A DNA stretch of 64,000 bases, taken from NCBI RefSeq assembly GCF_900100155.1, contig NZ_FMTP01000003.1, positions 496,001-560,000 on the forward strand, in the 5' to 3' direction. Below the pieces are notes generated by a model. It saw nothing but the letters and a program-made list of their open reading frames with translations. It did not search any database and was not told the DNA's origin. The position numbers and the translations under genes are program-made. Below, piece after piece: positions 13,658 through 32,915 of this stretch (the stretch's first letter is position 1; each line of letters starts with the position of its first letter). The stretch comes from Ancylobacter rudongensis (GTDB lineage Bacteria; Pseudomonadota; Alphaproteobacteria; Rhizobiales; Xanthobacteraceae).

Positions 13658-13671
13658 GTTTCACGTGAAAC
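13658..13671. other. parS site (perfect 14-bp palindrome)
   Basis: GTTTCACGTGAAAC is the core of the chromosomal parS consensus TGTTTCACGTGAAACA, the ParB loading site. This copy is intergenic, just after hslU, and about 18 kb from parAB. Confidence 0.9.
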
Positions 13672-13926
13672 GGGAGCAGTCGGATAGTGACGCTGGAAAT
13701 ACCCCCGTCATGCTGAGGAGGCGGGCGGAGCCTGCCGTCTCGAAGCACGCAGGTGGCTAAACCGGCGTTGGCTCGGAAGGCGTCCCACATGCCCAGCAGG
13801 AACGGGATCGGCGATGTTCTGCGTCCTTCGAGGCTCGCTCCGCGAGCACCTCAGGATGACGAGGGGCATCATGCTGAGGAGCGGCCCATTGCCCCGCGTC
13901 TCGAAGCACGCAGGTCCACCGCACCG
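13672..13926. repeat. Cluster of REP-like palindromic repeats
   Basis: There is no gene in 13625-13926. Two direct copies (about 13707-13753 and 13867-13914) share GTCATGCTGAGGAG or a close variant at the start and TCTCGAAGCACGCAGG at the end. An inverted copy with TGCGTCCTTCGAGG and CACCTCAGGATGAC occupies about 13818-13860. This head/tail pattern (CATxCTGAGG ... CGAAGxACGCAG) is the common intergenic palindrome of Hyphomicrobiales genomes. The repeats end just before the stop codon of the Xre gene. Confidence 0.7.
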
Positions 13927-14292
13927 CTACCCCGGCCGCCCCAGAATCTTCAGCCGGCCAAGCAGTTCCGCGACCGCCTCCGGCGGCAGGGTGGCGATCT
14001 CGCGGGCGAGCAGGTTGGCCAGCTCGGTCGCCTCGGGCGAGAGGCCAGATGTGTCCACCACCACGCGCGGATCGGAAAGGTCGGCCAGCGCCCGCAGCGC
14101 CTCCGCCTCGTCCCAGATCACGTTGAAATAGGCCATGATGCGCTGAAGCATCAGCCAGGTCGGCTGGCCGCGCTTGCCATGTTCCAGCGCCGAGAGATAG
14201 GCGGCGGAGACGCCGATCGCTTCCGCCATCTGGCTCAGCGTCACCCCGCGCTCGGCCCGCAGCTCGCGCAGGCGGCGGCCGAACGGCGTCAC
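13927..14292 (-). CDS. Xre-family helix-turn-helix regulator
   Basis: The 121-residue protein begins TPFGRRLRELRAERG and has a Cro/CI helix-turn-helix at about 5-60 (TLSQMAEAIGVSAAYLSALEHGKRG). A C-terminal acidic helical part probably dimerises. The GTG start at 14292 overlaps the Smr-gene stop (GTGA); longer frames upstream run through smr. Family members next to mltA and smr are common in this bacterial order, but their targets are not known. Confidence 0.85.
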   Translation of the reverse strand: MTPFGRRLRELRAERGVTLSQMAEAIGVSAAYLSALEHGKRGQPTWLMLQRIMAYFNVIWDEAEALRALADLSDPRVVVDTSGLSPEATELANLLAREIATLPPEAVAELLGRLKILGRPG

Positions 14293-14897
14293 GGCCGGTC
14301 CCCCCGCAGCCGGCGCACCCGCACATAAAGCGCGCCCTCCCCGCCATGGCCACGCCCGGCGGTCTCGAAGCCGAGCACGATGGCGCGCAGCTCCGGCGCG
14401 CCGAGCCATTGCGGCACCAGCCGGCGCAGCACGCCGCGCCCGCCCTCGCCGGCAAGCATGCTCATCGCCTCGCCCTTGCCTGTGATAACAAGCACCAGCC
14501 CGTGGCCCTCGCCCTGCGCCCCGCGCAGAAAGGCGATCAGCCGTCCATGCGCGGCCGCCTGGGTCATGCCGTGCAGATCGAGCCGCGCATCCACCTCCGC
14601 CCCGCGCGACAGCCGGCGCCGCAGCTTCGGCTCCAGCGGGGCGAGCGGCGGCGGCGCGGGGGGCTTGGGGGCGGTCTTGGCAGCGACGGGTACGGCCTTT
14701 GTCAGCCGGACGGGCTTATCGGCGGCCGGCTCCGCCGCCGCCTCGACCACGCCGCCGGCCTCGGCCGTGAGAGTGGTCCGCTTCACCGGGCGGATCGGCC
14801 GGATCGAGCGGGTCACATGCTCCCACAGCGCCGTCTCCTCGGCATCGAGCGGGCGGCGCCGGCGGGGACGGGGGCGCGGATCGGGCGGCCCGGCCAT
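14289..14897 (-). CDS. Smr/MutS2-type endonuclease domain protein
   Basis: The 202-residue protein has a basic, Pro/Ala-rich N-terminal half (1-95) and a C-terminal Smr domain. DLHG at 107-110 and VITGKG near 138-143 are the signature motifs; LYVRVRRLRG closes the domain. Smr domains nick branched DNA or cleave RNA, and the stand-alone bacterial proteins remain poorly characterised. It sits between mltA and the Xre gene with overlapping codons on both sides, in the usual mltA-smr order of Hyphomicrobiales. A GTG one codon upstream of the ATG at 14897 is an equal alternative. Confidence 0.9.
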   Translation of the reverse strand: MAGPPDPRPRPRRRRPLDAEETALWEHVTRSIRPIRPVKRTTLTAEAGGVVEAAAEPAADKPVRLTKAVPVAAKTAPKPPAPPPLAPLEPKLRRRLSRGAEVDARLDLHGMTQAAAHGRLIAFLRGAQGEGHGLVLVITGKGEAMSMLAGEGGRGVLRRLVPQWLGAPELRAIVLGFETAGRGHGGEGALYVRVRRLRGDRP

Positions 14898-16189
14898 CAC
14901 GGTGTTTCCGACACGGCGGCGGGAAGCAGCGACGCTGCGGGTGCCGGTTCGGGCGCCGTCGCGGGCCTCGGCCTGGGCAGCGGCACACGGGCGCGGGCGG
15001 GATCGAGCGCGCGCGGCAGCAGCAGGGTGAAGCGGCCGGGATGCTGGATCCGTCCGGCCACGGTGCCCGCCTCATCGCCGGCGCCGAAGAAGATATCGGC
15101 CCGCGCCGGGCCGATAATGGCCGAGCCGGTGTCCTGCGCGATCATCAGCCTTTCGAACGGTTCGCTCGCCCCCTCCGGCCCGGTCGGCAGATCAGCGTCG
15201 AGATAGAAGGGCGTGCCGTAGACATGGATCGCCTTGTCCACCGCAATCGAGCGCCCCGCCATCAGCGGCAGGCCCTGTGCGCCCACCGCCCCGTCCTCGG
15301 CCGTCAGCTCATGGGCGATGCGGAAGAAGATGTAGGAACGGTTTTCCCGCATCAGCGCGCGGCCCTCCTCCGGGTGCGCCGCGATATAGGCACGGATGGC
15401 GTCCATCGACATCTTCTCGCGCGGCACCAGCCCGCGCTCGATCAGCAGCCGACCGATCGGCGTATAGGGCTGGCCGTTATGTCCGTCATAGTTCAGCCGC
15501 AGCACCTCGCCATCGGGCAGGCGAACCCGCACCGAGCCCTGAATATGGGCGAAGAAGGCATCCGCCGGGTCGCGGATCCAGGCCACCACCGCGCCCTCAT
15601 CGCCGAGCGCCCCGTCCTCGATGGCGGCACGGTCGTGATAGGGCACCAGAGCGCCGTCCACCTTGCGGAAGGCGCCGCTCTTATTGGTCGGCGGCCCGCC
15701 GCCGGGCGGCGATTCGATGACGAGATCGGCCGGGCGGGCATAGAGCGGGGTGGCGAAGTCGCCCGAGCGGGTGCGCGACCCCTCGACCTCCGGCTCGTAA
15801 TAGCCGGTGAGGAAGCCGTTGGCCTGCTCCAGCGCGGTGATCGTATAGGGGCGGAATTCCTTCTCGAAGAATCGTCGCGCCACCGCGTCGCTCGGCTGCC
15901 TCGGCAGCCGCGCCGCCCGGGCACAGATCGGCCGCAGGGCTGAGAAGACCTGGCGGGGCGGGGTGACACGATCACCCTTGCGGGCAATCGCGCCGCAGCT
16001 GCGGCGGAAGGCGGTGAGAGCCTTGGCGTGGTCGTCCTGCGCCCAGCCGGGCAGCTCGGCAAAGCGGGTCGGCTCAAGCACCGCTTGCGGAAACAGCGGC
16101 GCCGGCGCGGCGCGCGCAGTCCCCGCGCCCAGGAGAAGGGCGCCGGTCAAAGTCCCGGAAAGGGCGATAATGAGAAGGAAAGCGCGCAC
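14897..16189 (-). CDS. mltA: Membrane-bound lytic murein transglycosylase A
   Basis: MltA (430 residues) cleaves peptidoglycan glycan strands, leaving 1,6-anhydro ends. It has an N-terminal hydrophobic signal segment (1-27) without a lipobox cysteine, so it is probably secreted or membrane-anchored rather than a lipoprotein. The MltA domain includes GFLTGYYEPEVEGS, and the C-terminal 3D domain shows AQDTGSAIIGPARADIFFG with the conserved aspartates including the catalytic one. It lies 12 bp after the Tim44-like gene, and its stop overlaps the Smr gene. Confidence 0.93.
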   Translation of the reverse strand: MRAFLLIIALSGTLTGALLLGAGTARAAPAPLFPQAVLEPTRFAELPGWAQDDHAKALTAFRRSCGAIARKGDRVTPPRQVFSALRPICARAARLPRQPSDAVARRFFEKEFRPYTITALEQANGFLTGYYEPEVEGSRTRSGDFATPLYARPADLVIESPPGGGPPTNKSGAFRKVDGALVPYHDRAAIEDGALGDEGAVVAWIRDPADAFFAHIQGSVRVRLPDGEVLRLNYDGHNGQPYTPIGRLLIERGLVPREKMSMDAIRAYIAAHPEEGRALMRENRSYIFFRIAHELTAEDGAVGAQGLPLMAGRSIAVDKAIHVYGTPFYLDADLPTGPEGASEPFERLMIAQDTGSAIIGPARADIFFGAGDEAGTVAGRIQHPGRFTLLLPRALDPARARVPLPRPRPATAPEPAPAASLLPAAVSETP

Positions 16190-16201
16190 CGCGCCATCTT
16201 C

Positions 16202-16930
16202 TCACGAAGCCGCTTCGGTGGCGACAAGCTTCCAGTTGGGATCACGGGCGCCGAGCTCGCGGGCGAAGGTCCACACATCGGTGACGTCGGCGACCTGCTC
16301 GGGATCGCCATCGACCACGCCGCCCGTCTTGTCGCGGGTGACGGAAATCAGCTGCGACAGGAAGCGCACGGTGATCTGCGCCGAGCGGCCGCGGGCATCG
16401 GCCTCGATGATGTCGGCCTTCTCGATGCCGACGAACTGCGTCTCCATCGTCTCGCCACGCTGCTCGCGCTCTGCGATGGCGGCGGCGAAGCCCTCGAACA
16501 CGTCACGCGCCAGCAGGTCCTTGAGCGCGGCGCGGTCGCCATGGGCGAAGGCGACGACGATCATCTCATAGGCGGCGCGGGCGCCGGTGAGGAAGTGCTT
16601 GGCGTCGAAATCGCGCTCCTGCGCGGCAATGGCGTCGAGGCCGTTGGCCACCGCCGAGCCGACCTCGGCCACGCCCGCCCAGCGCGCCGGCGCGGGTTCC
16701 GCGTCCTCCAGCGGCTCGACCGGCGCGGGCACGGCCGGCTTGTCATTGGCGGCGCCGGGGAAATTCACCACCTTGTCGGGAGCGCCCACCGGCGCCTTGG
16801 CGGCATCACGGCGCGAATAGGGGTCGTAGGGCGGCCGCTCGCGCCCTGTCCGCTGCCCCAGCACGCTCCGCAGCCGTATGAAAATGAACACGGCGAGGGC
16901 CAGGAAGATGATCGTATAAATGTCGAACAC
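16202..16930 (-). CDS. Tim44/TimA-like membrane-anchored protein
   Basis: The 242-residue protein has a single N-terminal transmembrane helix (IYTIIFLALAVFIFIRLR), a charged linker with RTGRERPPYDPYS, and a C-terminal Tim44-like domain (about 85-242). The domain is NTF2-like, as in mitochondrial Tim44, and the alphaproteobacterial proteins (TimA) are inner-membrane proteins of uncertain role in protein or envelope assembly. I chose the GTG at 16930, where the family N-terminus FDIYTIIFLAL begins; the ribosome site is weak. It heads the mltA-smr-xre operon and is divergent from secB. Confidence 0.88.
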   Translation of the reverse strand: MFDIYTIIFLALAVFIFIRLRSVLGQRTGRERPPYDPYSRRDAAKAPVGAPDKVVNFPGAANDKPAVPAPVEPLEDAEPAPARWAGVAEVGSAVANGLDAIAAQERDFDAKHFLTGARAAYEMIVVAFAHGDRAALKDLLARDVFEGFAAAIAEREQRGETMETQFVGIEKADIIEADARGRSAQITVRFLSQLISVTRDKTGGVVDGDPEQVADVTDVWTFARELGARDPNWKLVATEAAS

Positions 16931-17382
16931 GTCGCAGTTCGCCGCTGTTGGCCCCGCCGGAGCCGTTCCGGCGCGGGACTGAACATCATGTGGTGCCGGC
17001 GCGGCGGCTTCCAAGGAAGAACCGACCCGTTCACATGACCTATTTACGACGTCTGGCCGATTTCGCCACCCCGTCCCTGCCCCAGGGTCATCACATCGGG
17101 CGGAACAGGGGAAGGCGAACAGCGCGGCCGGACATCCATCCGCACAGTAGAGCAAGCCGGCGGCTTCCGCCAAGCGGCGTGGTTCGAGGTCTGGTCCGGG
17201 GCTTGGCGCCCTGGCATGCCAGAACCCACCGGAAACGGCGCCGCACCGCGCTTGTGAGCCGCATCCAACCGTGTTAGCGACACCCGCCCCTTGAAAGACC
17301 GGCTGAGGCGGGATCCCCGACCCAGCGGCACCATCGCCGGCGCCCCGGATGGCCGATTCCGGCGAACCCCACGGAGAAACCT
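16931..17382. other. 452-bp divergent intergenic region, no gene seen
   Basis: The region separates the Tim44-like gene from secB and must hold both promoters. Open frames crossing it have no start signals or family similarity. The secB side ends with GGAG 8 nt before the ATG. I found no convincing -35/-10 pair or RNA structure. Confidence 0.5.
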
Positions 17383-17847
17383 ATGGCTGAGACCGACAAC
17401 GCCCAGATGCCGACGCTGCAGGTACTGACGCAGTACACGAAAGACCTGTCCTTCGAAAATCCGGGCGCGCCGGAATCGCTGGTCGTGAAGGGCCAGCCGC
17501 AGATCGGCATCCAGATCAACGTCAATGCCAAGCCGATGCGCGAAGGCTCGGAATATGAAGTCGAGCTGAAGGTCGAGGCCAAGGCCGAGCTGAACGGCAA
17601 GACGCTGTTCGCGCTGGAGCTGGTCTATGCCGGCATCTTCCGCGCCCAGAACGTGGCGCAGGAGACCATCCACCCCTTCATCCTGATCGAATGCCCGCGC
17701 ATGCTGTTCCCCTTCGCGCGGCAGATCGTCGCCGACACGGTGCGCAATGGCGGCTTCCCGCCGCTGATGATCGATCCGGTGGACTTCGTCACCCTCTATC
17801 GCCAGCGCATGGCGCAGCAGGCGCCGAGCAACGTGCTCGCCTCCTGA
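17383..17847 (+). CDS. secB: Protein-export chaperone SecB
   Basis: SecB (154 residues) is a tetrameric cytosolic chaperone that keeps preproteins unfolded for SecA. The family signatures are visible: [18 protein letters not shown] at the start, [27 protein letters not shown] in the beta sheet, and [36 protein letters not shown] in the helical C-terminal half. It is monocistronic here, convergent with dnaQ. Confidence 0.97.
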
Positions 17848-17890
17848 CGCAGGCCTTTCGATCCTGAGCCTTACAGCACGGCCGGCGGCG

Positions 17891-18589
17891 TCAGCTTCCG
17901 GCCGTGTAGTCTTTCCAGATGGCGTTCTCGCCCAGCGTGGCGATGAAGGCGGCATGGGCGGCGGCCTCCGCCTCGTGCCGGCGCGGCGCCAGCGGGCGCG
18001 GACGCTGCATCGGGCTCGCCACCTGGCCCTCGATCACGACGACGGTGGCCTCCGAGGCGGTCAGGCTCAGCGCCGTCTGCTTGCCGCCACACAGTTCGGC
18101 ATAGACCTCCGCCAGCAATTCGGAATCCAGCAGCGCTCCGTGCTTGGTGCGGCGCGAGCTGTTGATGCCGTAGCGGTTCATCAGGTCGTCGAGACGATTC
18201 GACGCACCCGGATGCCGCCGCCGCGCCAGCGAGAGCGTGTCGATCACCCGGTCGAAGGTCAGCACCGGCCGGCCTATCTTCGCCAGCTCCGCATTGAGGA
18301 AGCCGATGTCGAAGGCGGCGTTGTGAATCACCAGCGGATCGCCGGCGATGAAGGCGAGGAAATCGTCCACCACCTGGGCGAAGAGCGGCTTGTCGGCGAG
18401 GAATTCGCTCGACAGCCCATGGACGTTGAACGCCTCCACCGGCATGTCGCGCTGGGGGTTGAGATAGACGTGGTAGACCTGCCCCGTCGGGATGCGGTTA
18501 TAGATCTCGACGCAGCCGATCTCGACCAGCCGGTCGCCGGTGAGCGGGTTGAGGCCGGTGGTCTCGGTGTCGAGCACGATCTCACGCAT
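17891..18589 (-). CDS. dnaQ: DNA polymerase III epsilon subunit (3'-5' proofreading exonuclease)
   Basis: DnaQ (232 residues) has a DEDDh exonuclease domain: Exo I DTETTG at 7-12, Exo II in [11 protein letters not shown], and Exo III in [15 protein letters not shown] with the catalytic His. The C-terminal tail (about 190-232) is the region that binds the polymerase alpha subunit. It is the last gene of the ppsR-maf-aroE-coaE-dnaQ operon, and its ATG lies inside coaE (8-nt overlap). Confidence 0.96.
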
Positions 18590-19217
18590 CGCCGTCTTCC
18601 TTGTTCGCGTTCCCGCCGCGCGCCGCCCGCAGCTGGTGCAGCAGCTCTGCCACGGCGGCCCGGGCATGGTCCAGCCCGTGGCGGGTATCGAGCACATGAT
18701 CGGCGCGCCGGCGCTTCTCGGCATCCGGCATCTGCCGGGCGAGGATGGCGGCGAAAGTCTCTTCGCTCATGCCGGGCCGGGCCATCACCCGCGCACGCTG
18801 GACGTCTTCCGGCGCGGTCACGACAAGCACGGCATCGACCCGGTCTTGCGCGCCGGTCTCATAAAGCAGCGGGATGTCGAGCACGGCGATAGGTTCGCCC
18901 GCCTCGGCCGCCTGGTCGAGGAAGGCTTTTTCCCGCGCCCGCACCAGCGGGTGAACGATGGCTTCCAGCCGCTTCATCGCCTCGTCATTGCCGAACACAC
19001 GGGCGCCCAGCAGCGCGCGGTCGACCCGCCCGTCCACCACCACGCCGGGAAAGGCCGCCTCGACCGGGGCGGCCCCTTCCGCGCCATAGAGTGCGTGCAC
19101 CGCCGCATCCGCATCGTGCACCGGCACGCCGAGCTCGCGGAAAATCTGCGCCGTGGTCGATTTGCCCATGCCGATCGAGCCGGTCAGGCCGAGCCGGAAG
19201 GGCAGGCGAGGGCTCAC
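18582..19217 (-). CDS. coaE: Dephospho-CoA kinase
   Basis: CoaE (211 residues) phosphorylates the 3'-OH of dephospho-CoA, the last step of coenzyme A synthesis. The P-loop [11 protein letters not shown] covers 11-21, and the [11 protein letters not shown] and IPLLYETG segments are the family motifs. The GTG start at 19217 overlaps the aroE stop (GTGA). With coaA at 5 kb, two CoA-pathway genes are present in the window. Confidence 0.95.
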
Positions 19218-20059
19218 GCCAGCTGCCCCTTGGCCTTGAGATCGGCGATAACAAGCGCCCGCAGCTCGGCCGTCACCTCCGGGCGCACACCGAACCAGCG
19301 CTCAAAACCCGGCACCGCCTGGTGCAGCAGCATGCCGAGCCCATCCACCGTGGCGAGGCCGCGCGCCTTCGCCGCCTTGAGCAGCGGCGTTTCCAGCGGC
19401 ACATAGACGATGTCGGTCACCAGCGCGTCTGGCGACAGCGGGGAAAGGTCGATGTCGAGCGGCGGCTGGCCCTTCATGCCGAGCGAGGTGGTGTTGACCA
19501 GCAGCCGGCAGCCAACCAGCCGCCCGCCGAGATCGCGCCAGTCGATCGGCAGCACGCGCGGGCCGAAGGTGTCGCGCAACGCCTCGCCGCGCGCCCGTGT
19601 GCGGTTGGCCACCACTACGCGGTCGACGCCGCGCTGCAGCAGCCCATAGACAACAGCCCGCGCCGCGCCGCCGGCGCCGAGCACCACCGCCTCGCCCAGC
19701 GCCCGCGCCCAGTCCGGTTCGGCGGCGTCGAGATTGGCGAGGAAGCCGTGCACATCGGTGTTGGCGCCATGCAGGGCGCCGTCTTCCAGCCACAGCGTGT
19801 TCACCGCGCCGAGCGCCTCCGCCACCGCATCACGCGCTGCGCAGGCGCGGAAGGCGGCTTCCTTGTGCGGCACGGTGACATTGCCGCCGACGAGGCCCGA
19901 GGCGGCGAAAGCGGCGAGAAACGAATCGATATCTCCAGGGGCGACAGCGCGCACGCCATAGGCGCCGTCGATGCCGTGCCGGGCCAGCCAGTAGCCATGG
20001 ATCAGCGGCGAACGGGAATGGCTGACGGGATGGCCGATAATCGCCACGTTGCGGGTCAC
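19214..20059 (-). CDS. aroE: Shikimate dehydrogenase
   Basis: AroE (281 residues) reduces 3-dehydroshikimate with NADPH. Substrate-binding SRSP is at 15-18; the catalytic Lys66 is in NVTVPHK; the catalytic Asp is in GANTDVHGF; the nucleotide fold has [14 protein letters not shown] with NRTRAR; and NTTSLGMKG is present. A GTG start overlaps the maf stop by 4 nt. The order ppsR-maf-aroE-coaE-dnaQ is a hallmark of alphaproteobacterial origin regions. Confidence 0.96.
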
Positions 20060-20688
20060 AGCAGAAATCCCTCAGAGCGTAGAAAACCGAGCAGCGGCAG
20101 CAGCGGCAGCCCCAGTATCACCGAATGGTCGCCCTCGACACGCGCGAACAGATGGATGCCGAGCCCCTCCAGCTGGTAGCCGCCGACGCTGGACAGCACC
20201 GCGTCGCCGGCCGCATCGAGATAGGCCTCGATCGCAGTGTCATCGAGCGGGCGCATGGAGAGATGGGCGCTCTCGACGCACACGAACCGCACCTCTCCGT
20301 CGCGCGCCACCGCCACGGCGGAATGCAGCTCATGGGTGCGCCCGGCCAAGCGGGCGACCTGTGCCTTCGCTGCCGCCCGGTCGGTCGGCTTGTGGAGGGC
20401 TTCGTCGCCCAGCGCCAGCGTCTGGTCGGCACCGATGACCAGCCGACCCGGGTGCGCGGCGGCGCCCGCCAGCGCCTTGGCGCGGGCAAGGGTGAGCGCC
20501 ACGCCCGCGGGATCGGCACCCTCTTCAACGGCCTTCGCCTCGATGGCGCGCTCGTCCACCTCGGCGCTCACCACCTCGAAGGGCAGGCGCGCCGCCTCCA
20601 GCAAGGCACGTCGGGCGGCGCTCTTGGAGGCGAGCAGCAGTGGCGCCGTCCCGCGCCACTGCGGATTTCCGCGCGGTGCGTCAGCCAT
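20056..20688 (-). CDS. maf: Maf-family nucleotide pyrophosphatase
   Basis: The 210-residue protein has the Maf features [21 protein letters not shown]-like N-terminus, VDERAIE, and the catalytic GADQTLAL segment with [12 protein letters not shown]. Maf proteins hydrolyse dTTP, UTP or modified pyrimidine NTPs and are linked to cell-division control. The exact specificity of this paralogue type is not clear from sequence. Its ATG is embedded in the ppsR stop region with an 8-nt overlap. Confidence 0.92.
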
Positions 20689-21547
20689 TGGGATTCTCGG
20701 TCAGCTTGCGCCGGCGCTCCTGCAACAGGGCGATGATCGCCGCCGCCGTCTCCTCGATCGAGCGGCGGGTGACGTCGATCATCGGCCAGCCATGGCGGGC
20801 GCAGAGCCGGCGGGAAAAGGCGATCTCCTCCGCCACCGCCTGGCGGTCGGTATAGGTGTCGGCCGCCTGCGCCGCATTCAGCCCGAGCAGCCGGTTGCGG
20901 CGGATTTCCACCACCCGGTCGGCACTGGCCAGCAGGCCGACGATCAGCGGCCGCTTGAGTTCCGCGAGGCCCGGCGGCACCGGCAGGCTCGGCACCAGCG
21001 GGATATTGGCGGTCTTGATGCCGCGATTGGCGAGATAGATGCTGGTCGGCGTCTTCGACGAACGCGAGATGCCGAGCAGCACGACATCGGCGGCTTCCAG
21101 CCCGTCCACATGCTGGCCGTCATCATGCATCACGGTAAAGTTCATCGCGTCGATGCGGCGGAAATAATCGCCGTCGAGCTGGTGCTGGCCGCCGACGCGC
21201 GGTTCCGGCGCGCCGCCGAGATAGGCCTGGAACAGCTGCACCACAGGCGCCAGCACCGAGAGCACCGGCACGCCATGGTCGCGGCAATAGGTTTTCAGCC
21301 GGTTGCGCAGTTCCGGGTCGGTCAGGGTGTAGAGCACGATGCCGGGAAATTCGTCGATCGCCTGCACCACCTTGTCGAGCTGCTTGTGCGAGCGCACCAG
21401 CGGGTAAATGTGCTCGATCGGCTTCACATCATACTGCGCCGCCGCCGCCCGGCCGACGCTGATCAGCGTCTCGCCGGTGGAATCCGACACGAGATGGAGG
21501 TGGTAGTAGCTCTCCGAGGGGCGGACGGTTTCAGTCACCCCGGTCAT
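20681..21547 (-). CDS. ppsR: PpsR-type kinase/pyrophosphorylase (COG1806, DUF299)
   Basis: The 288-residue protein belongs to the family that regulates PEP synthase or pyruvate phosphate dikinase by ADP-dependent phosphorylation and Pi-dependent dephosphorylation of a threonine. [13 protein letters not shown] at the N-terminus and the P-loop-like [15 protein letters not shown] (about 156-170) are the family signatures. The ATG at 21547 is the natural start; the open frame upstream reaches into the intergenic region. It is the first gene of the operon and faces hemE across the candidate oriC, as the RP001 homologue does in Caulobacter. Confidence 0.93.
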
Positions 21548-21872
21548 CCACAGGCCTGTGCATAGGATGGGAACAAGCCACGCCCTCGGCGCGTTCGCAA
21601 GGGCGCCCTGGGGATAGAGGGCGATTTCCTCCACAGGCGTCACCCTGTGCGCTTTATCAAGGCGGGATCGGCGAACTGCGTGGATAACACTGCAGGCCGC
21701 GTCTAAGCCCTTCATCCGACTGGATTATGGATTCATCCGCGGCCGGCCCGCAGGCGACAAGGCTGGGGGCGTGTTGTGGGCAGGGAGGAACATGTCTAAT
21801 CCCCTGCTCACTACACAGACAACCTTCGATTCAAAGTGCTTAAAGAAGTATGAAGAGGCAGGGGACAAGCGG
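21548..21872. other. Candidate oriC between ppsR and hemE
   Basis: This divergent 325-bp region is where Caulobacter and related genomes have oriC. DnaA-box-like 9-mers are TCATCCACA (21544-21552, one mismatch, overlapping the ppsR start), TCCTCCACA (21627-21635, two mismatches) and, on the reverse strand, TTATCCACG (21679-21687, one mismatch). GANTC sites lie at 21730 and 21828. The 21781-21860 stretch is about 55% A+T by direct count, high for this DNA. Gene orientation switches here from mainly reverse to mainly forward. See also the competing region at 25.4 kb. Confidence 0.55.
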
Positions 21873-22949
21873 ATGGAAAGCGCCGGAATGGAAAGCGCCA
21901 GGGCAGAGGCCAGCGTGAAGAACGAGCCGATCCTGCTGCAAGCGCTGGACGGACGGGTGCCGAACCGCACGCCGATCTGGATGATGCGTCAGGCCGGGCG
22001 CTATCTCCCGGAATACCGGGCGGTGCGCGAGAAGGCCGGTGATTTCCTCACCCTCTGTTACACGCCCGATCTCGCCGTCGAGGTGACGCTGCAGCCGATC
22101 CGGCGCTTCGGCTTCGATGCGGCGATCCTGTTCTCCGACATTCTCGTCGTGCCGCATGCGCTCGGCTGCCCGCTGACCTTCGAGGCCGGGGAGGGACCCC
22201 GTCTGGTGCCTGTCACCACCAGCGCCGAGCTTGCCGCCCTGCGCGAGGAGCTGGACCCGGACAAGATCGACCGGGTGCTGGAAGCGGTCAGCCGCATCCG
22301 GGCCGAGCTTCCCAAAGAGACGGCGCTGCTCGGTTTCTGCGGCGCGCCGTGGACGGTCGCGACCTATATGATCGCCGGGCGCGGCACGCCGGACCAGGCG
22401 CCGGCGCGCCTCGCCTCGCTGCGGGACCCGGCGTTCTTCACCGCGCTGATCGATCGGCTGGTGGAAACTTCGGCCCGCTATCTCGTCGGCCAGCTCAAGG
22501 CCGGCGCCGATGCGGTGCAGATCTTCGACAGCTGGGCCGGGGTGCTGGATCCGACAAGCTTCCGTCGCTGGTCGATCGAGCCGATCCGCCGCATCGTATC
22601 CCTGGTGCGGGCTGAAGTTCCCGGCGCGCGCATCATCGCTTTCCCGAAGGGCGCCACTCTGCCCGGCCTCACCGCGATGGTGCAGGCGACGGGCGTCAAT
22701 GCGGTGGGGCTCGACTGGACCGCCGATCGCCCGGCGACCCGCTATGCGCTGGGGGCGAAATGCGCGCTGCAGGGCAATCTCGATCCGCTCACCCTGATCG
22801 CCGGTGGCCGGGCGCTCGATGCGTCGATCGACGCGATTCTGGCCGATTTCCGCGGCGCCTCGCATGTGTTCAATCTCGGCCATGGCATCCGCCCGGAAAC
22901 GCCGATCGTCCATGTCGAGCAGATGATCGCCCGCATTCGCGGCGTCTAG
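21873..22949 (+). CDS. hemE: Uroporphyrinogen decarboxylase
   Basis: HemE decarboxylates uroporphyrinogen III to coproporphyrinogen III in haem synthesis. The N-terminal substrate loop [18 protein letters not shown], the [12 protein letters not shown] segment with the catalytic Asp, and the [13 protein letters not shown] and NLGHGI motifs are intact. I chose the ATG at 21873, with AGGGG upstream, giving 358 residues; the ATG at 21888 is equally possible, and frames starting further up would run through the candidate origin. hemJ and rho follow on the same strand. Confidence 0.95.
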
Positions 22950-22973: not shown

Positions 22974-23399
22974 ATGCTGTATGAGTGGATCAAGGCGCTG
23001 CATGTCATGGCCATCATCTCCTGGATGGCGGCGCTGCTCTACATGCCTCGGCTGATGGTCTATCACTGCGACGCGCCCAAGGGCTCGGCGCAGTCGGAAA
23101 CCTTCAAGGTGATGGAGCGGCGCCTGTTGAAGGCGATCTCCCGCCCGGCCATGGCGGTGAGCTGGCTGGCCGGGCTCTACCTCGCCTGGGAGGGCGGGTG
23201 GTTTGCGTCCGGCTGGTTTCACGTGAAACTGGCGCTGGTGGTCGGCATGACCATCGCGCAGGAATATCAGGCCCGCTGGGTCGCCGATTTCGCCGCCGAC
23301 CGGAATGTCCGGCCGGCGCGTTTCTTCCGCATGATGAACGAGGTGCCGACGCTGTTGATGATCGGCATCGTCATCATGGTCATCGTAAAGCCGTTTTAA
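22974..23399 (+). CDS. hemJ: Protoporphyrinogen IX oxidase HemJ
   Basis: The 141-residue membrane protein oxidises protoporphyrinogen IX and replaces HemG/HemY in many alphaproteobacteria. It has four hydrophobic helices. The residues known to be essential in HemJ can be recognised: His10 in KALHVMAII, Arg26 in MPRLMVYH and Lys85 in HVKLAL. It lies 24 bp after hemE, so the two form a small haem operon. A perfect parS site is embedded in the coding sequence for the stretch WFHVKL. Confidence 0.92.
23216..23229. other. parS site (perfect 14-bp palindrome) inside hemJ
   Basis: GTTTCACGTGAAAC lies within the hemJ coding region and encodes part of WFHVKL. This is the parS copy nearest to the candidate origins. 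Confidence 0.9.
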
Positions 23400-23454: not shown

Positions 23455-23643
23455 GCGCGAACTCCACGAAGCTGGCTGTCGCTCCGTTCAGACGGGCATC
23501 TCCCCGATGCCGCACGGTGTGCCGGACAAGAAGCCGATCCCCTCGGCCTGGGTCCGCAGACCAGCGCTTCCCACCTTTTGTCGTTTCGGCGGGTGTTTTC
23601 CCGACCGGCTACGTCCACATCAGAAATATCGAGGCCCTTTCCC

Positions 23644-24909
<1,266 letters not shown>

Positions 24910-24944
24910 GGCGTAAAGCCGAAGCAGACCGCGGGGAGGCGGGC

Positions 24945-25349
24945 ATGAGGGCAGGGCAGTTCTACCGGCTTTCCGTCATGGCGCTTCCCCTCACACTGCT
25001 TCTCGCGCTGCCGGTGCAAGCCGGCGTCGCGGAACGCGAGCCGCCGACAGCGGAACTCTGGCTGTTCGTCATCGGCATCGCCGCGCTCAGCTGGGTCATG
25101 GCCTGCCGGCGCTGGTGGCTTCCCCTCGCCGTGTGGCTGCCCACGGCCCTGTTCGTCGCCAGCCTCATCGCCGACTTCGCCGATCCGGTCATCGGGCCGG
25201 CAGTCCGCGAGGAACTCGGGCTCGCCTATGTGCTGCAGGCGGACCTCGCCGGTGCGCTGATGCTGGTGGTGCCGCTGATGCTGGCCAATGTGAAGTTCAG
25301 CCGGCTGGACACGGATAACCGTCCGGGAATGCGGCGCCAGCGACGCTGA
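24945..25349 (+). CDS. Small membrane protein of unknown function
   Basis: The 134-residue product has a signal-like N-terminus (FYRLSVMALPLTLLLALPVQA) and about three more hydrophobic segments, with a basic C-terminal tail (NRPGMRRQRR). A strong GGGGAGG precedes the ATG at 24945 by 6 nt. I recognise no family. It lies 35 bp after rho, in the place where this gene order usually continues towards mnmE, and is followed by an unusual A+T-rich intergenic region. Confidence 0.75.
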   Translation: MRAGQFYRLSVMALPLTLLLALPVQAGVAEREPPTAELWLFVIGIAALSWVMACRRWWLPLAVWLPTALFVASLIADFADPVIGPAVREELGLAYVLQADLAGALMLVVPLMLANVKFSRLDTDNRPGMRRQRR

Positions 25350-25410
25350 GTGCTTTATCGCAATAAAGGCCGCGATATTTTCGATATCTCAGGCGAATTT
25401 GCCAAGATAA

Positions 25411-25434
25411 CATCATTTCGCTGACGAAATGATG
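25411..25434. repeat. Perfect 10-bp inverted repeat with tetraloop
   Basis: CATCATTTCG (25411-25420) and CGAAATGATG (25425-25434) enclose CTGA. It is not followed by a T-tract on either strand, so it is not an obvious terminator. It sits inside the A+T-rich part of the alternative origin region. Confidence 0.7.
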
Positions 25435-25502
25435 GCCTTCAGAAATGACTCAGGACGGGCGAAGAGCTGGTCGTCCGATCCATTCCTCGCAAAAGTGGAA
25501 AC

Positions 25503-25516
25503 GCCCGCCAGCGGGC
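25503..25516. terminator. Short GC hairpin, possible terminator
   Basis: GCCCGC (25503-25508) and GCGGGC (25511-25516) form a 6-bp stem with AAA before it and ATTTCTGTT after it. It could end transcripts of the small membrane-protein gene or, on the other strand, of the thioredoxin-domain gene. Confidence 0.45.
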
Positions 25517-25683
25517 ATTTCTGTTGATTTGACCGGGGGGTGGGGGGTTTCTCCCCAGATTATCCACAGGCTTACCCACAAAGGCCGCCGCGACGGCCGA
25601 TTCGACCCCAACACGCTGCCGGCTGCGCCCAAACCGTCCGCTCCTGCCGGCAAGCCAGGCGAGGGCCTCATCGGCCGCCTCGC

Positions 25684-27714
25684 TCAGCCGCCGCGCAGCA
25701 ATTCCTCCAGTCGATTCACTTCCGTAACGGGCAGCGAGCAACTGCCGCCAGCGCAGACAAAAGCGGCGGGCGCGCCGTTGCCGACATTGCCTCCGCTCGT
25801 CAGGCTTGTCGCCTTCGCGCGCGCGGGGTGATCGGTGGGCAGGGCCGAGGAATCGCTCACGCGCTGCACACTGACATCGACCAGCGGCATCCGGCGGGCG
25901 GCGTCTGCGAGCACGTCAGCCTCCGCACCCGCGCCGATCACCACCACCTCGCGCGCCCTCAGCCTTGTGTCGAGCGCGTTGAGCAGGCCGGCATGGCTGT
26001 AGAGATGCGGCGCGGCACGCGGCAGCAGCGCATCGAACAGACGGTCGGCACGGGCGCGGTAGGCATCATCGCCGGTCAGGATCGCCAGCCGCACCAGGTT
26101 GCGGGCGATCAGCGCCTGCGGGCTGGTCACGGCGTCATCGGCGGTGGCCTCCGGGCGCAGGATCAGCCCTTCCGCGTCATCGGCGGTGAGATAATAGCCG
26201 CCCGCTTCTGTCGCGTGATGCGTTTCCAGCATCGCCTGCCAGGCAATCGCCTGATCGAGATAGGCCCGCTCGCCCGTTGCTTCCGCCAGCGCCAGCGCGG
26301 CGCCGATCATTGCGGCGTAGTCGGCGGAAAGGCCGGGGAACACCAGCCGCCCGGCACGCCAGCTATGGCCGAGCCTGCCGTCTTTCACCATCGATTCGGC
26401 GATGAAACGGAAGGCGCCAGCGGCCAGCTTCACCCATTCCGGCCGTCCGATGCGCGGGGCGACGCCCACCAGCGCCGCGATCATCAGCCCGTTCCAGTCC
26501 GCCAGCACCTTGTCGTCGCGGCCGGGCGGCACGCGCTTTTCGCGCACGGCAAGCAGCTTGTCGCGCAGCATGGCGAGCCGGATTTCGTCGGCGCCCGAGC
26601 GCTCCATCTCCTTCAGCCGGTTGGGAATCGACACGCCTTCCCAATTGCCGAACGGGGCGATGTCATAATGGCGGGCGAAGAACTCGGCGTCCTGCGCGCC
26701 CAGCGCGTCCAGCACCTGCTTCAGCGTCCAGACATAATAGCGGCCCTCATGGCCCTCGGAATCGGCATCGAGGCTGGCGGCGAAGGCGCCGCCCTCGGTC
26801 ATCATCTCGCGCTGCAGCCAGCCAACGGTCTCGATGGCGCGGGCGCGGAACAGCTCCGCACCGGTCTCGGCATAGGCGAGGCCGAGCAGGTCGAGGATCT
26901 GCGCATTGTCGTAGAGCATCTTCTCGAAATGCGGCACCAGCCAGCGGTCATCGACGCTGTAGCGGGAATAGCCGCCGCCAATATGGTCGTAGATGCCGCC
27001 CTCGCTCATGCCGTCGAGCGCGTGCAGCGCCGCGTCGCGCAGTCTCGTTCGCCCGGTGCGCTCCCAGCCGCGCCAGAGCAGTTCGAGGAACGGCGTGTTG
27101 GGGAATTTCGGCGAGCCCTGCAGCCCGCCATGCTCGGTGTCCATGATGCCGAGAATGCGCCCGGCGATGTCGTCGAGCTCATTGGTGCCGATCACCACCT
27201 GGCCGGCCGGGCGGGCCTTCTGCCGCAGCCGTTCCAGCAGGGCGGCGCGGTTCTGGGTGATGCGCGGATCGCCGGAAGCATAGGCGCCGGCCATGGTCTT
27301 CAGCACCTCGGTAAAGGCAGGCTGGCCATAGCGCGGCTCTTTCGGGAAATAGGTGCCGCCCCAGAAGGGCGCGCCCTCGGGGTCGAGGAACATGGTCATC
27401 GGCCAGCCGCCCTGGACGCCCAACTGCTGCAGAGCGGCCATATAGATCTGGTCGACCTCCGGCCGTTCCTCGCGATCGACCTTGATGTTGACGAACAGCT
27501 CGTTCATTACCGCCGCCGTCGCCGCATCCTCGAAGCTCTCATGCGCCATCACATGGCACCAGTGGCAGGCGGCATAGCCGATGGAGAGCAGGATCGGCCG
27601 GTTGCTGCGGCGGGCCTCGTCGAAGGCGTCCGGCGTCCACTCCCACCAGTCGACAGGGTTGTCCTTGTGCTGCAGCAGATAGGGGCTGGCGGCGGCGGCG
27701 AGCTGGTTGGGCAA
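25684..27714 (-). CDS. Thioredoxin-domain (DUF255/YyaL) protein
   Basis: The 676-residue protein starts with the YyaL/SPATA20 signature [18 protein letters not shown] and has a thioredoxin-like fold with the Cys50-His-Trp-Cys53 motif in [11 protein letters not shown]. The C-terminal two thirds form an alpha/alpha toroid like N-acylglucosamine epimerase or six-hairpin glycosidases. The family's substrate is not known. The start is TTG at 27714 with GGAG upstream. It is the only reverse-strand gene between ppsR and parB, and it is divergent from mnmE. Confidence 0.88.
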
Positions 27715-27806
27715 GATGTCGCTCCGGCTTGGGACACAGTATCGTGGCGCGGCGGCAGGCGTTCATTTCAGGAGACGCGGCCGATTCAACAGATAGGGCG
27801 TAGCGG

Positions 27807-29198
27807 GTGGACGTGCAGGAAAAAAGCGCAATCGACAAAAGCGCCATCGAACCTCCCGTGGCCGGCGCCGACACCATCGCGGCCGTTTCCTCCGGCAGCG
27901 GCGGCGCGGTTGCCGTCATCCGCCTGTCCGGCCCGCAGGCCGGGGCTGTTCTCGTGGCGCTGGCCGGCCGGTTGCCCGAGCCGCGCCGGGCGCATCTGGC
28001 GCGGCTGCGCCACCCCACCTCCGGCGAGGTGCTCGACCAGGGGCTGGCGCTCTGGTTCCCCGGCCCGCGCAGCGCGACGGGGGAGGACATGGCCGAACTG
28101 CAGATCCATGGCGGGCGCGCGGTGGTCGCCGCCGTGCTCGGCGCCGTGCTCGCCGTCCCCGGCCTGCGGCCGGCGGAAGCGGGCGAGTTCACCCGGCGCG
28201 CCTTTCTCAATGGGCGGATGGACCTTACCGAGGCGGAGGGCCTGGCCGATTTGATCGGGGCGCAGACGCAGGCGCAGCGCCGGCTCGCCTTCGCCCATGC
28301 CTTCGGCCATCTCGGCCAGCGGGTGGAGGACTGGCGCCGCCGCCTGATTCGCGCCATGGCGCTCATTGAGGCCGGCATCGATTTCGCCGATGAGGACGAT
28401 GTGCCGGCCGGTGCGCGCGCGCTGGCGCGGCCGGAGGTCGAGGCGCTGCAGGCCGAACTGCAGGCGGCGCTGGCCGACCGGCGCGGCGCCCTGGTGCGGG
28501 AAGGGGCGCTCATCGCCATTGCCGGCCTGCCGAATGCCGGCAAGTCGTCGCTGATCAACGCGCTGGCGCAGCGCGACATCGCCATCGTCTCCGACGAGCC
28601 GGGCACCACGCGCGACCTGCTGGAGGTGGCGCTCGACCTCGACGGCCACAAGGCGACACTCGTCGACACCGCCGGCCTGCGCGAGGCCGAGAGCAAGGTG
28701 GAAGCCGAGGGCATACGCCGCGCCCGCGCCCGCATCGCCGATGCCGATCTCGTGCTGTGGGTGCATGATCTTTCCGCCGGGCCGGCGCCTGAGGCCTGCC
28801 CTTCGATCGAGGTCGACGCCCCGCTCTGGCTGGTGGCCAACAAGATCGACCGCGCCGACGCCGCGCCGGCGCCGTCGGCCGGCTGGGCGGTTCAGGACTA
28901 CAATGTCTCGGCGGCGAGCGGGGAGGGGCTGGAGGCGCTGACCCGCGGCATCGGTGGCTTCATCGCCGCACGAACGGAAGGCGAGCACCCGGCGCTGATC
29001 CGCGCCCGTCACCGGGCCAGCGCCGGGCAAGCGGCCGCGCATCTCGCCGTCGCTCTGGGGCAGTGGGAACGGCTGGACGACGAGTTGCTTGCGGAGGAGC
29101 TTCGGCTTGCCGCCCGCGCGCTCGGCCGGATGACCGGGGCGATCGGCGTCGAGGATCTTCTCGATGTCGTGTTCCGCGAGTTCTGCATCGGCAAGTAG
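27807..29198 (+). CDS. mnmE: tRNA modification GTPase MnmE (TrmE)
   Basis: MnmE (463 residues, GTG start) works with MnmG to add the carboxymethylaminomethyl group to the wobble uridine of certain tRNAs. It has an N-terminal formyl-THF-binding domain with TIAAVSSGSGGAVAVIRLSG, a central helical domain, and an inserted G domain: GLPNAGKSS, the EPGTTRD switch, DTAGLRE and NKID. The essential C-terminal CIGK ends the protein. A second GTG six bases downstream could be used. mnmG follows after a 220-bp gap that holds two parS-like sites. Confidence 0.96.
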   Translation: MDVQEKSAIDKSAIEPPVAGADTIAAVSSGSGGAVAVIRLSGPQAGAVLVALAGRLPEPRRAHLARLRHPTSGEVLDQGLALWFPGPRSATGEDMAELQIHGGRAVVAAVLGAVLAVPGLRPAEAGEFTRRAFLNGRMDLTEAEGLADLIGAQTQAQRRLAFAHAFGHLGQRVEDWRRRLIRAMALIEAGIDFADEDDVPAGARALARPEVEALQAELQAALADRRGALVREGALIAIAGLPNAGKSSLINALAQRDIAIVSDEPGTTRDLLEVALDLDGHKATLVDTAGLREAESKVEAEGIRRARARIADADLVLWVHDLSAGPAPEACPSIEVDAPLWLVANKIDRADAAPAPSAGWAVQDYNVSAASGEGLEALTRGIGGFIAARTEGEHPALIRARHRASAGQAAAHLAVALGQWERLDDELLAEELRLAARALGRMTGAIGVEDLLDVVFREFCIGK

Positions 29199-29215
29199 CG
29201 CCGCCGGCGGGCGCG

Positions 29216-29229
29216 GATTCACGTGAAAC
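29216..29229. other. parS-like site, one base from consensus
   Basis: GATTCACGTGAAAC differs from the perfect palindrome at the second base. It lies just after mnmE and is the reverse complement of the site at 29264. Confidence 0.75.
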
Positions 29230-29263
29230 ACAGGGAGTGCCGAGGCCGATTCGTAAACGAAAT

Positions 29264-29277
29264 GTTTCACGTGAATC
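29264..29277. other. parS-like site, one base from consensus
   Basis: GTTTCACGTGAATC differs at the thirteenth base. Its centre is 48 bp from that of the site at 29216, with which it forms an inverted pair between mnmE and mnmG. Confidence 0.75.
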
Positions 29278-29421
29278 AGGCTGCGCTGCTGTCCACAAGT
29301 GGTGAGGGTCTCGCTCCGGCTTGACGGCGGGGCAAATCGCTGGCTGAACAGGCCATCCCTTCGCCCGCCGAGATGCGCGCGCCCGTTGTCACGGCGCGAC
29401 AGAAGCCTGCGAGCCTGCCCG

Positions 29422-31278
29422 ATGACCGCTCACTCTCTCTCCTTCGACGTCGTCATTATCGGCGGCGGCCATGCCGGCACAGAGGCGGCGGCCGCTGCCG
29501 CGCGGCAGGGTGCCCGCACCGCGCTGGTGACGCACAGCCACGCCACGCTCGGCACCATGTCGTGCAACCCGGCGATTGGCGGGCTGGGCAAGGGGCATCT
29601 CGTGCGCGAGATCGACGCGCTGGACGGGCTGATGGGCCGCGTCGCCGACCAGGGCGGCATCCAGTTCCGCCTGCTCAATCGCCGCAAGGGCCCGGCGGTG
29701 CGCGGCCCTCGCGCCCAGGCCGACCGCAAGCTCTACGCCCAGGCGATGCAGCGGGCGATCGATTCGCAGCCGAACCTATTCGTGGTGGAGGGCGAAGCCG
29801 ACAGCCTGATCCTCCAGGAGGGGCGCGTCACCGGCCTGGTTCTGGCAGACGGGAGGCGCCTCGAAGCCGGCGCCGTCGTCGTCACCACGGGCACCTTCCT
29901 CAACGGGCTGATCCATATTGGCGACCAGCAGATCCCGGCGGGGCGGATGGGCGAGGCGCCGGCACGCGGGCTCTCCACCTCGCTCGCCGCGCTGGGGCTT
30001 CGGCTCGGCCGGCTGAAGACCGGCACGCCGCCGCGCCTCGATGGCCGCACGATCGACTGGGCCGGGCTGGAAATGCAGGAGGGCGACACGCCCCCCGAAC
30101 CGTTTTCCTCGCTCACCGCAGCGATCACCAACCCGCAGGTGATGTGCGGCATCACCCGAACGACGCCGGAAACCCATGCGGTGATCCGCGCCAATATCGC
30201 CCGCTCGGCGATGTACTCCGGCAACATCCAGAGCGTCGGCCCGCGCTATTGCCCCTCGATCGAGGACAAGATCGTCCGCTTCGGCGAGCGCGAAGGCCAC
30301 CAGATCTTCCTGGAGCCGGAAGGGCTGGACGATCCCACCGTCTATCCCAATGGCATCTCCACCTCGCTGCCGGAAGAGGTCCAGCGCCTGCTGCTGGCAA
30401 CCATTCCGGGTCTGGAACGGGTGCGCCTCATCCGTCCCGGCTATGCGATCGAATATGACCATGTCGACCCGCGCGAACTGGAGCCGACGCTGGAAGTGCG
30501 CAAGGCGCCCGGCCTGTTCCTCGCCGGCCAGATCAATGGCACGACCGGCTATGAGGAAGCGGCGGCGCAGGGTCTGGTCGCCGGGCTGAACGCGGCGCGC
30601 CGGGCGGGCGGGCAGGACGGCGTCACCTTCGACCGGGCGGAAGCCTATATCGGGGTGATGATCGACGATCTCGTCACCCGCGGGGTGAGCGAGCCCTACC
30701 GCATGTTCACCTCGCGGGCGGAGTATCGCCTGTCGCTGCGGGCTGACAATGCCGACCAGCGCCTCACCGCCAAGGGCGACGGGCTCGGCCTGGTCGGCGC
30801 GGCGCGGCGGGTGCAGTTCGCCGCCCGTCGGGAGGCGCTGGCGCGGGTCTCGGCCTGGAGCCGCTCGGTGTCGATCACTCCGGGGGAGGGCGATGCGCAC
30901 GGTCTCACCCTCAACCGCGACGGCCAGCGCCGCACGGCGTTCGATCTGCTGTCCTACCCACATGTCGGCTGGGCCGATATTTGTCGCATCTGGCCGCAGG
31001 TGGCGGGCGAGGATGCCCGCATCGGCGAGCAGGTGGAGGTCGATGCCAAATACGCGGTCTATCTCCATCGCCAGGAGGCCGACATCGCCTCGTTCCGCCG
31101 CGACGAGGCGGCGGAGCTGGCGGAGATGGATTATCGCGGGCTGGCCGGGCTCTCGAACGAGATCAAGGCCAAGCTGGAATCGATTCGGCCCCGTACCATT
31201 GGCCAGGCCGGTCGCATCGACGGCATGACCCCGGCGGCGCTGGCGCTGCTGGCGGCGCATGCCCGCCGGGTGTCGTGA
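29422..31278 (+). CDS. mnmG: tRNA uridine 5-carboxymethylaminomethyl enzyme MnmG (GidA)
   Basis: MnmG (618 residues) is the FAD partner of MnmE. The dinucleotide fold is at the start, [14 protein letters not shown]; the family segments [37 protein letters not shown] and [16 protein letters not shown] with [15 protein letters not shown] are complete. The C-terminal helical domain contacts MnmE. The ATG at 29422 fits the family; the longer frame from 29299 runs back towards the parS pair and lacks similarity. Confidence 0.97.
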
Positions 31279-31346
31279 GGCGCGCCGGCGGGTTTTGTCG
31301 CGCGCGCTCCGGCTGCTGCGGGGGCGGGGATGCGGTATAAAGCGCC

Positions 31347-32051
31347 ATGTCCAGGAATGATTCGTCCGATCGCGCCCGCGCGCTGAGCCTCACCCCTGTT
31401 TCACGTGAAACGGAACAGCGGCTCGACGTCATTGTCGGTCTGCTGGAGAAATGGCAGCGCACCATCAATCTGGTCGCGGCTGCCTCGCTGCCGCAGGTGT
31501 GGACCCGGCATGTCGCCGATTCGCTCCAGCTGATCCCGCTCGCCGGCGAGGTCAGGCGCTGGGTCGATCTCGGCTCGGGCGGCGGCTTTCCCGGTCTGGT
31601 GGTGGCAGCGGTGCTGGCGGAGCGTCCCGACGCCGATGTGACGCTGGTGGAAAGCGACAGTCGCAAGGCCGCCTTCCTGCGCGAAGCGGCGCGGCTGGCC
31701 GAGCTTCCGGTCACCGTGCTGCCATCGCGAATCGAACAGGTCGCCGCCGTGCTTGCGCCGGGGGTCGAGGTCGTGTCAGCCCGCGCGCTTGCGCCATTGC
31801 CACGGCTGCTGGAGCTGGCGGCTCCCTTCCTTGCGCAGGGAGCGACCGGGCTGTTCCTCAAGGGACAAGATGTTGATAACGAATTGACCCAGGCAGCTAA
31901 ATCTTGGAGAATCGAGGCTGAGATTAGGGCGAGCCTGACCGATGGCGGCGGCCATGTCCTGATCGTCCGCAACGCAGTCCCGCTGGGGCCTGACGGGGCC
32001 GGCGAGTCTTCGGGCGGCAAGGGATTTTCGCAGGGTGGACATCATGGATGA
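31347..32051 (+). CDS. rsmG: 16S rRNA (guanine-527-N7) methyltransferase RsmG (GidB)
   Basis: RsmG (234 residues) methylates G527 of 16S rRNA; its loss gives low-level streptomycin resistance. The SAM-binding glycine motif is WVDLGSGGGFPGLV, followed by LVESDSRKAAFLRE and SARALAPL. The C-terminal tail is somewhat long. The codons for PVSRETE form a perfect parS site. Its stop lies inside the parA start region. Confidence 0.94.
   Translation: MSRNDSSDRARALSLTPVSRETEQRLDVIVGLLEKWQRTINLVAAASLPQVWTRHVADSLQLIPLAGEVRRWVDLGSGGGFPGLVVAAVLAERPDADVTLVESDSRKAAFLREAARLAELPVTVLPSRIEQVAAVLAPGVEVVSARALAPLPRLLELAAPFLAQGATGLFLKGQDVDNELTQAAKSWRIEAEIRASLTDGGGHVLIVRNAVPLGPDGAGESSGGKGFSQGGHHG
31398..31411. other. 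parS site (perfect 14-bp palindrome) inside rsmG
   Basis: TGTTTCACGTGAAACG matches 15 of the 16 bases of the consensus. The site encodes part of PVSRETE and is about 650 bp from parA. Confidence 0.92.
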
Positions 32052-32904: not shown

Positions 32905-32915
32905 GGGAGGGGGCG

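Follow-up and report, generated by a model that had tools for sequence, protein, structure and literature searches.

Can the centromere of a bacterial chromosome carry the target of a DNA methyltransferase inside the sites where its own partition protein is loaded? The question is raised by a stretch of 64,000 nucleotides from Ancylobacter rudongensis (contig NZ_FMTP01000003.1, positions 496,001 to 560,000; the whole stretch is called the window below), which holds five parS sites for the protein ParB next to the parA and parB genes. Two of the five differ from parS by one base, and this base creates GANTC, the target of CcrM. We consider the cluster to be an ordinary chromosomal ParABS centromere (parS region) around the replication origin (oriC), in which these two sites are probably selected hybrids of parS and a CcrM target; from the sequence data, we put the probability of this reading at roughly 0.8.

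Five parS sites in one part of the chromosome

The five sites, three perfect and two hybrid, are the following.

13658-13671, no strand assigned: perfect parS GTTTCACGTGAAAC, intergenic, with the end of hslU 33 bp before it
23216-23229, no strand assigned: perfect parS GTTTCACGTGAAAC, within hemJ, in the W-F-H-V-K-L codons
29216-29229, plus strand: hybrid parS GATTCACGTGAAAC, one mismatch, left half GATTC (GANTC), right half unaltered
29264-29277, minus strand: hybrid parS GTTTCACGTGAATC, one mismatch, left half unaltered, right half GAATC (GANTC)
31398-31411, no strand assigned: perfect parS GTTTCACGTGAAAC, within rsmG, in the V-S-R-E-T codons

The pattern used was the 14-mer GTTTCACGTGAAAC, against which all mismatches were counted. 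The three perfect and two one-mismatch copies claimed by a sequence-only reading of the window were recovered with it at the same coordinates and with the same mismatch counts, while the 16-mer given as the motif in that reading has one or two mismatches at every site and so fits less well. At up to two mismatches the window holds these five sites and no others; 100 dinucleotide-preserving shuffles gave a mean of 0.04 and a maximum of 1, and none of the 100 reached five. The whole-genome search at one mismatch that had been proposed as a check, run with the 14-mer on 4,498,808 bases, detected only the five clustered sites. At two mismatches the genome gives one extra parS-like site, on a different contig, and a control pattern read backwards gave 1 match in the whole genome at up to two mismatches and 0 at up to one. 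The five sites span 17,754 bp, for which simple arithmetic gives a random placement probability of ~1e-9. Both one-mismatch copies lie in the mnmE-mnmG spacer, at a distance of 48 bp, and the sequence of one is exactly the reverse complement of the other.

The one-base hybrid class and its explanations

The change in the hybrid sites is T2 to A in one half-site (A2; GTTTC becomes GATTC) with the other half intact, and C2 and G2 denote the other bases at this position. The class was followed in the mnmG loci of relatives. The first set comprised 80 named loci, taken as the top MnmG matches in a single scan, and includes L061, which is apparently outside the order and is the same locus as L191 of the set from other alphaproteobacterial orders. 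The second set comprised 78 hand-picked loci, mostly one per genus, 77 of them from the 150 genomes, out of 160, that gave a match; L182 (G323) was added from outside those 150 genomes and L181 (G130) is the second pick of its genus, the hybrids being known beforehand in both. The merged set has 157 loci, after removal of L119 as a duplicate of L048, and a reduced set of 154 loci leaves out L061, L181 and L182.

We detected 199 perfect and 80 one-mismatch parS sites in the first set, with GATTCACGTGAAAC accounting for 63 of the 80, in 27 loci, and 126 perfect and 119 one-mismatch sites in the second, where 86 of the 119 are of the GATTCACGTGAAAC class, in 36 loci. The merged set holds 323 perfect, 197 one-mismatch and 42 two-mismatch sites. 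The 197 include 147 of the A2 class, 10 C2 and 0 G2, in loci where the pentamers GCTTC (11,231) and GGTTC (5,857) are both commoner than GATTC (4,908). Intergenic one-mismatch sites are of the A2 class in 72 of 88 cases, in 41 loci, and the reduced set leaves the conclusions standing (140 of 190 one-mismatch sites, in 60 loci). The second set has the A2 class or its GACTC form in 21 of 43 families and a GATTC site without stop-codon overlap in 20 of 43. In an MnmG tree built with FastTree from 156 loci, at least 22 changes are needed to explain which loci have a site of the class outside stop codons, and at least 8 for C2. In the same genus, genome G022 has five sites of the same types, spaced almost as in the window, including the 48-bp pair, and similar hybrid pairs lie 48 bp apart in A. 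aquaticus (L007) and 47 bp apart in L008. The two imperfect copies of the window seem to belong to a specific class that recurs in relatives, and not to be decayed sites.

The share of hybrids among hybrid plus perfect sites differs by place: 53/208 in the mnmE-mnmG spacer, 9/155 in rsmG or the mnmG-rsmG gap, 14/15 at mnmE stop codons and 71/92 elsewhere, including 8 at other stop codons. A consistent orientation of the hybrid pair was considered and dropped, outward and inward pairs both occurring in relatives.

The further changes in these sites fit GANTC as the changed unit. The window hybrids hold GATTC at 29216-29220 and GAATC at 29273-29277. Of the A2 hybrids, 15 have a second mismatch, which gives GACTC in 10 of them; among 50 one-mismatch sites that are not A2, 2 have C3 alone (Fisher 9e-7, with sites as units; 9/13 vs 2/50 in the reduced set, 1.4e-6); with stop overlaps excluded, GACTC is present in 6 loci and needs at least 5 tree changes. 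A change in both halves was seen in a single site, where within-locus permutation gives an expectation of 20.5 (0 of 5000 permutations came out that low); the counts are 0 against 9.8 for intergenic sites and 1 against 18.8 in the reduced set. Since doubly changed sites are nearly absent, A2 is probably not neutral for parS, yet no other departure comes near it in frequency. The loci avoid GANTC (6,774 seen vs 16,519 expected), and the genome carries a gene for a CcrM-type methyltransferase (L110:1357-2532, 391 aa), which matches PDB entry 6pbd with E 9.8e-150 over residues 30-386. Selection of GANTC itself in the hybrids is supported but not proven by these comparisons.

A third GANTC stands in the same spacer:

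29248-29252, no strand assigned: GATTC between the two hybrid sites, present also in the L007 and L008 spacers

By eye, it belongs to a motif at 29240-29263 (CGATTC, in several loci followed by GGAAT or a variant), which is seen also in L007, L008, L048, L057, L062, L070 and L074. In several lineages the extra CGATTC stands either before the second parS or within the mnmE-mnmG spacer.

Several observations weigh against the selected hybrid. No GAATC or GAGTC version turned up in the count (0), so the N of GANTC is not fully free, and GANTC is mildly raised in the parS flanks (112 vs 80 expected) as in other intergenic gaps (666 vs 582). In A. lacus (L019) the left site of the pair is C2, not A2, which speaks against strict conservation of the pair; the relatives' outer sites are mostly hybrid (71 vs 21 perfect), whereas those of the window are perfect. 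Sites of related genomes are not independent, and the gap in tree changes is smaller than that in sites (22 for A2, 8 for C2). Stop codons overlap 22 of 147 A2 and 3 of 10 GACTC sites, vs 1 perfect site. Forty hand-picked loci from other alphaproteobacterial orders gave 83 perfect and 9 one-mismatch sites and only 1 hybrid, with one further two-mismatch site holding GATTC. CcrM alone does not predict hybrids, because it is widespread in Alphaproteobacteria, being reported as conserved in most of them (PMC3973325).

The flank enrichment was not used as support, being only mild by a Markov expectation and by comparison with other palindromic pentamers; the raw comparison of GANTC density looked stronger and is confounded by intergenic composition.

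The best surviving alternative is that the ParB of the order merely tolerates A2 in one half. The hybrid would then be a slightly weaker, nearly neutral parS in which GANTC arises as a side effect and CcrM plays no part; we regard this as plausible and rather doubtful. The A2 class is mostly restricted to the order, which is the pattern expected of a ParB preference specific to the clade: an exact hybrid search of 299 genomes of the phylum was positive in 19/38 genomes of the order, 0/48 of other Alphaproteobacteria and 7/213 of others. ParB Y157 (window numbering) also speaks for this alternative, being found in 57/57 loci with the class, 55/92 without it and 12/39 from other Alphaproteobacteria. 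Against tolerance, position 3 changes almost only alongside A2, which fits a GANTC unit; tolerance at position 2 alone would predict no more variation at position 3 in hybrids than in perfect sites. Tolerance also predicts about 20 double sites where 1 was seen, GANTC is otherwise avoided in the loci, and the key recognition-helix residues are the same in both groups (K168, S169, R170, N175 and R178 identical in 57/57 class loci and 92/92 others). No residue in ParB positions 132-241 separates loci with and without the hybrid class, Y157 coming closest.

A control of 20 non-alphaproteobacterial loci included G079 and G163, picked because the variant was known there, which account for both occurrences; the remaining 18 gave no hybrid, and their sites are too few to carry weight. 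Two non-alphaproteobacterial genomes, both of the same genus, have a hybrid parS ~4.8-4.9 kb upstream of mnmG (G148:C414:8699, G163:C14:26570), so that the hybrid may have arisen in that genus too.

It is unlikely that the spacer GANTCs belong to an mnmG promoter under CcrM/GcrA control and that their overlap with parS is incidental. This would account for the 53 of 147 A2 sites in the mnmE-mnmG spacer, the extra GANTCs there, and the Brucella/Ochrobactrum loci with TTGACTC and GAGTC elements, but about 71 A2 sites are in other places, among them rho-mnmE, hemE-hemJ and the gap after rho. Still less probable is that overlapping code forces the change, A2 supplying a TGA stop (mnmE, maf) or a codon. 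The stop-codon overlaps counted above, and a further 26 A2 sites within genes, make it hold for a minority; as a general cause it is contradicted by the 72 A2 sites (41 loci) that are intergenic and free of stop overlap, and the window stop codon does not force A2, because the TAG of mnmE lies 17 bp before 29216. Chance or decayed palindromes, for which the single mismatch and nothing more can be said, are ruled out as the origin of the five sites by the shuffles (0.04 expected in the window) and by the absence of any other genome site at up to one mismatch, and similar pairs 47-48 bp apart recur in G022, L007 and L008.

Gene neighbourhood, candidate origin and sites within genes

Genes were called with NCBIfam profiles at their curated cut-offs, and ParB and CcrM were also compared with PDB sequences. 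The profiles of hslU, hemE, hemJ, rho, mnmE, mnmG, rsmG and the ppsR subfamily all exceed their cut-offs. The genes that frame the sites are listed here.

12317-13624, plus strand: hslU, TIGR00390 above cut-off, left edge of the cluster
22974-23399, plus strand: hemJ, with a parS inside, TIGR00701 above cut-off
27807-29198, plus strand: mnmE, NF003661 above cut-off, TAG stop 17 bp before the hybrid site at 29216
29422-31278, plus strand: mnmG (gidA), TIGR00136 above cut-off
31347-32051, plus strand: rsmG (gidB), with a parS inside, TIGR00138 above cut-off
32035-32904, plus strand: parA, by position, with ParA/MinD-type matches that are all under the curated cut-offs
32916-33827 (searched as 32913-33827), plus strand: parB, TIGR00180 above cut-off

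The parAB genes, placed at 32-34 kb by the earlier reading, were found there, with parA at 32035-32904 and parB ending at 33827. ParA, which adjoins ParB as its predicted ATPase, has KGGVGKTT near its start, in keeping with such an ATPase. ParB has Caulobacter ParB (6t1f) as its best PDB match, with E 4.8e-72, and aligns with 6t1f and 1vz0 over most of their length, suggesting an N-terminal nuclease-like/CTPase fold followed by a helix-turn-helix; its GERRWRA and ENVQRADL stretches are in keeping with this. Assignment to the Noc system is not favoured: the window ParB scores 215.6 where the Noc cut-off is 315, and its sites are clustered and have the parS sequence. The MnmG of the window is 95% identical to that of A. 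aquaticus. Among the 157 loci, parS at up to one mismatch lies in or beside mnmE in 147 and in or beside rsmG in 138. The view of the region as centromere-like gains support from the clustering, the adjacent parAB and the same gene neighbours in relatives.

The sites bracket the gap between ppsR and hemE, where we place the candidate origin because of synteny and DnaA boxes.

21548-21869 (start codons approximate), no strand assigned: candidate oriC, the ppsR-hemE gap, with DnaA-like boxes

The gap of the window has a DnaA-like box at its edge (21544) and another at 21679, both with a single mismatch. The ppsR-hemE gaps of 88 relatives contain 4.35 DnaA-like boxes per kb vs 0.20 per kb over all loci (~20-fold), the highest density of the 15 gap types for which 15 or more examples were available, and the claim of a cluster around the origin is in line with this. 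The parS sites would lie ~8 kb from the candidate oriC on one side and 1.5, 7.5, 7.5 and 9.7 kb on the other, clustered near it and rare elsewhere. GC skew within the window is weak and without a single clean switch.

A perfect DnaA box TTATCCACA followed by TTACCCACA lies at 25560-25580, outside the ppsR-hemE gap and before the gene at 25684-27714; nearby, 25341-25460 ranks among the 100-bp stretches with the highest AT content in the window. DnaA may thus have another binding site at 25560, at a distance of 4 kb from the candidate oriC. The ppsR-hemE gap itself holds a GAGTC-type hybrid parS with two mismatches in three relatives (L079:4303, L121:1123, L132:5584).

Two of the perfect sites are inside genes. 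With the codon use of 18 window genes, the codons of the rsmG site (GTT TCA CGT GAA) have a joint probability of 2e-5 and those of the hemJ site (TTT CAC GTG AAA, F-H-V-K) of 0.003. The RsmG of relatives (n=154) has VSRET in 117 cases, VSRES in 8 and VSHET in 6, the motif being absent in 23; at the hemJ position, relatives have a perfect parS in no more than 3 loci, a one-mismatch site in 3 and a two-mismatch site in 14. Because of the unlikely codon choice and the VSRET conservation, a DNA signal, rather than the protein alone, appears to be maintained in these genes. In most relatives the rsmG parS appears to fix the V-S-R-E-T stretch, that is, a DNA signal appears to shape the protein.

Related systems and a possible meaning of the hybrid sites

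The number of parS sites (up to one mismatch) per genome of the same family is 1-7 in 59 of 61 genomes; the other two, G001 with 60 and G048 with 43, belong to one genus, g2. In G048, 41 of the 43 are perfect and 12 stand in one array within 1.8 kb; in G001 a mapped array of 11 perfect parS occupies ~1.6 kb and lies roughly 4-5.5 kb before parB. Sixteen copies, the first-listed perfect matches, were fetched from the two genomes (L094-L109; L259 is also from g2). All are perfect parS, and most are on a conserved, interspersed body of ~130 bp next to AAAAT-parS, L108 being the clearest exception. A query with one copy gave at least 14 matches in each g2 genome, 78-95% identical besides the query itself. 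Elsewhere in the 61-genome set the ~130-bp repeat was found in none, the match in G014 being 21 bases of parS only. The copies were found through the parS core, and a search of this kind could miss copies that have lost it. The core seems to be kept in the repeats, because decay like that of the body would give many one-mismatch copies and G048 has only 2 of 43. These copies are putative ParB sites, and we know of no earlier case of unchanged parS in copies along a whole chromosome.

Noc binding sites (NBS) are dispersed along the chromosome. As a dispersed parS-like palindrome, they are the nearest analogue of the g2 repeats. Each half of NBS departs from parS at two bases (PMC7383237), while the g2 copies are unchanged parS, most of the fetched ones on the ~130-bp repeat.

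The closest known system for the window itself is the ParABS of Caulobacter crescentus (parS1-7), in which parS is likewise clustered, at ~8 kb from the origin (PMC5815017), and ParB is a homologue of that of the window. One half of the Caulobacter parS (GTGAAA) is conserved and drawn there with a thicker arrow; in the window hybrids a specific one-base change in the second half creates GANTC, and GANTC, CcrM and 'methylat' are absent from the text of PMC5815017. The spans also differ, 17.8 kb for the window sites and within 5 kb for the five strongest Caulobacter sites in that source. In PMC5172544, the GANTCs of the C. crescentus parS locus are methylated, extra methylases come without significant change, and the top-50 table has no position from the 4031-4039 kb parS region. 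The hybrid sequences, searched as text, gave no match in the text of papers; figures, supplements and subscription papers lay outside that search, and in the literature as far as accessible we found no published report of GANTC inside a chromosomal parS.

The parS of repABC replicons are RepB sites of a different sequence. These secondary replicons are GANTC-rich near their partition sites, with a suggested role in partitioning (PMC9040568, PMC11514494). The GANTCs described there are near parS, not inside it, while here GANTC is within the parS of a primary chromosome.

In the proposed mechanism, ParB would load on the five sites and spread, and ParA would then separate the replicated origins, as is established for the family and inferred here. 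At a hybrid, one half-site would be kept for ParB and the other, through T2 to A, would give GATTC, a CcrM target. Because the adenine marked by CcrM would lie within the stretch read by the ParB helix, we propose that loading at hybrids depends on methylation: they would load ParB less strongly, or only in a given GANTC methylation state. Replication would make the hybrids hemimethylated and CcrM would later restore full methylation, and this changing methylation could tune ParB loading or its timing. The sequence is compatible with two alternatives, that methylation alters ParB or that ParB shields the sites from CcrM.

That methylation affects ParB at the hybrid sites is, in our judgement, close to an even bet and short of it. 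We hold equally tentatively that the primary centromere of Hyphomicrobiales could be an epigenetic switch, in which one CcrM half-site per hybrid would couple segregation to the methylation clock: fork passage, with its hemimethylation, and later CcrM action would change ParB loading, or ParB would protect the sites.

For annotation, one-mismatch parS sites of the A2 class should not be discarded as decayed. The timing of segregation relative to replication in Alphaproteobacteria is, as far as we know, not settled. If the selected hybrid is true, a CcrM target placed where ParB is loaded would tie the centromere directly and physically to the methylation cycle.

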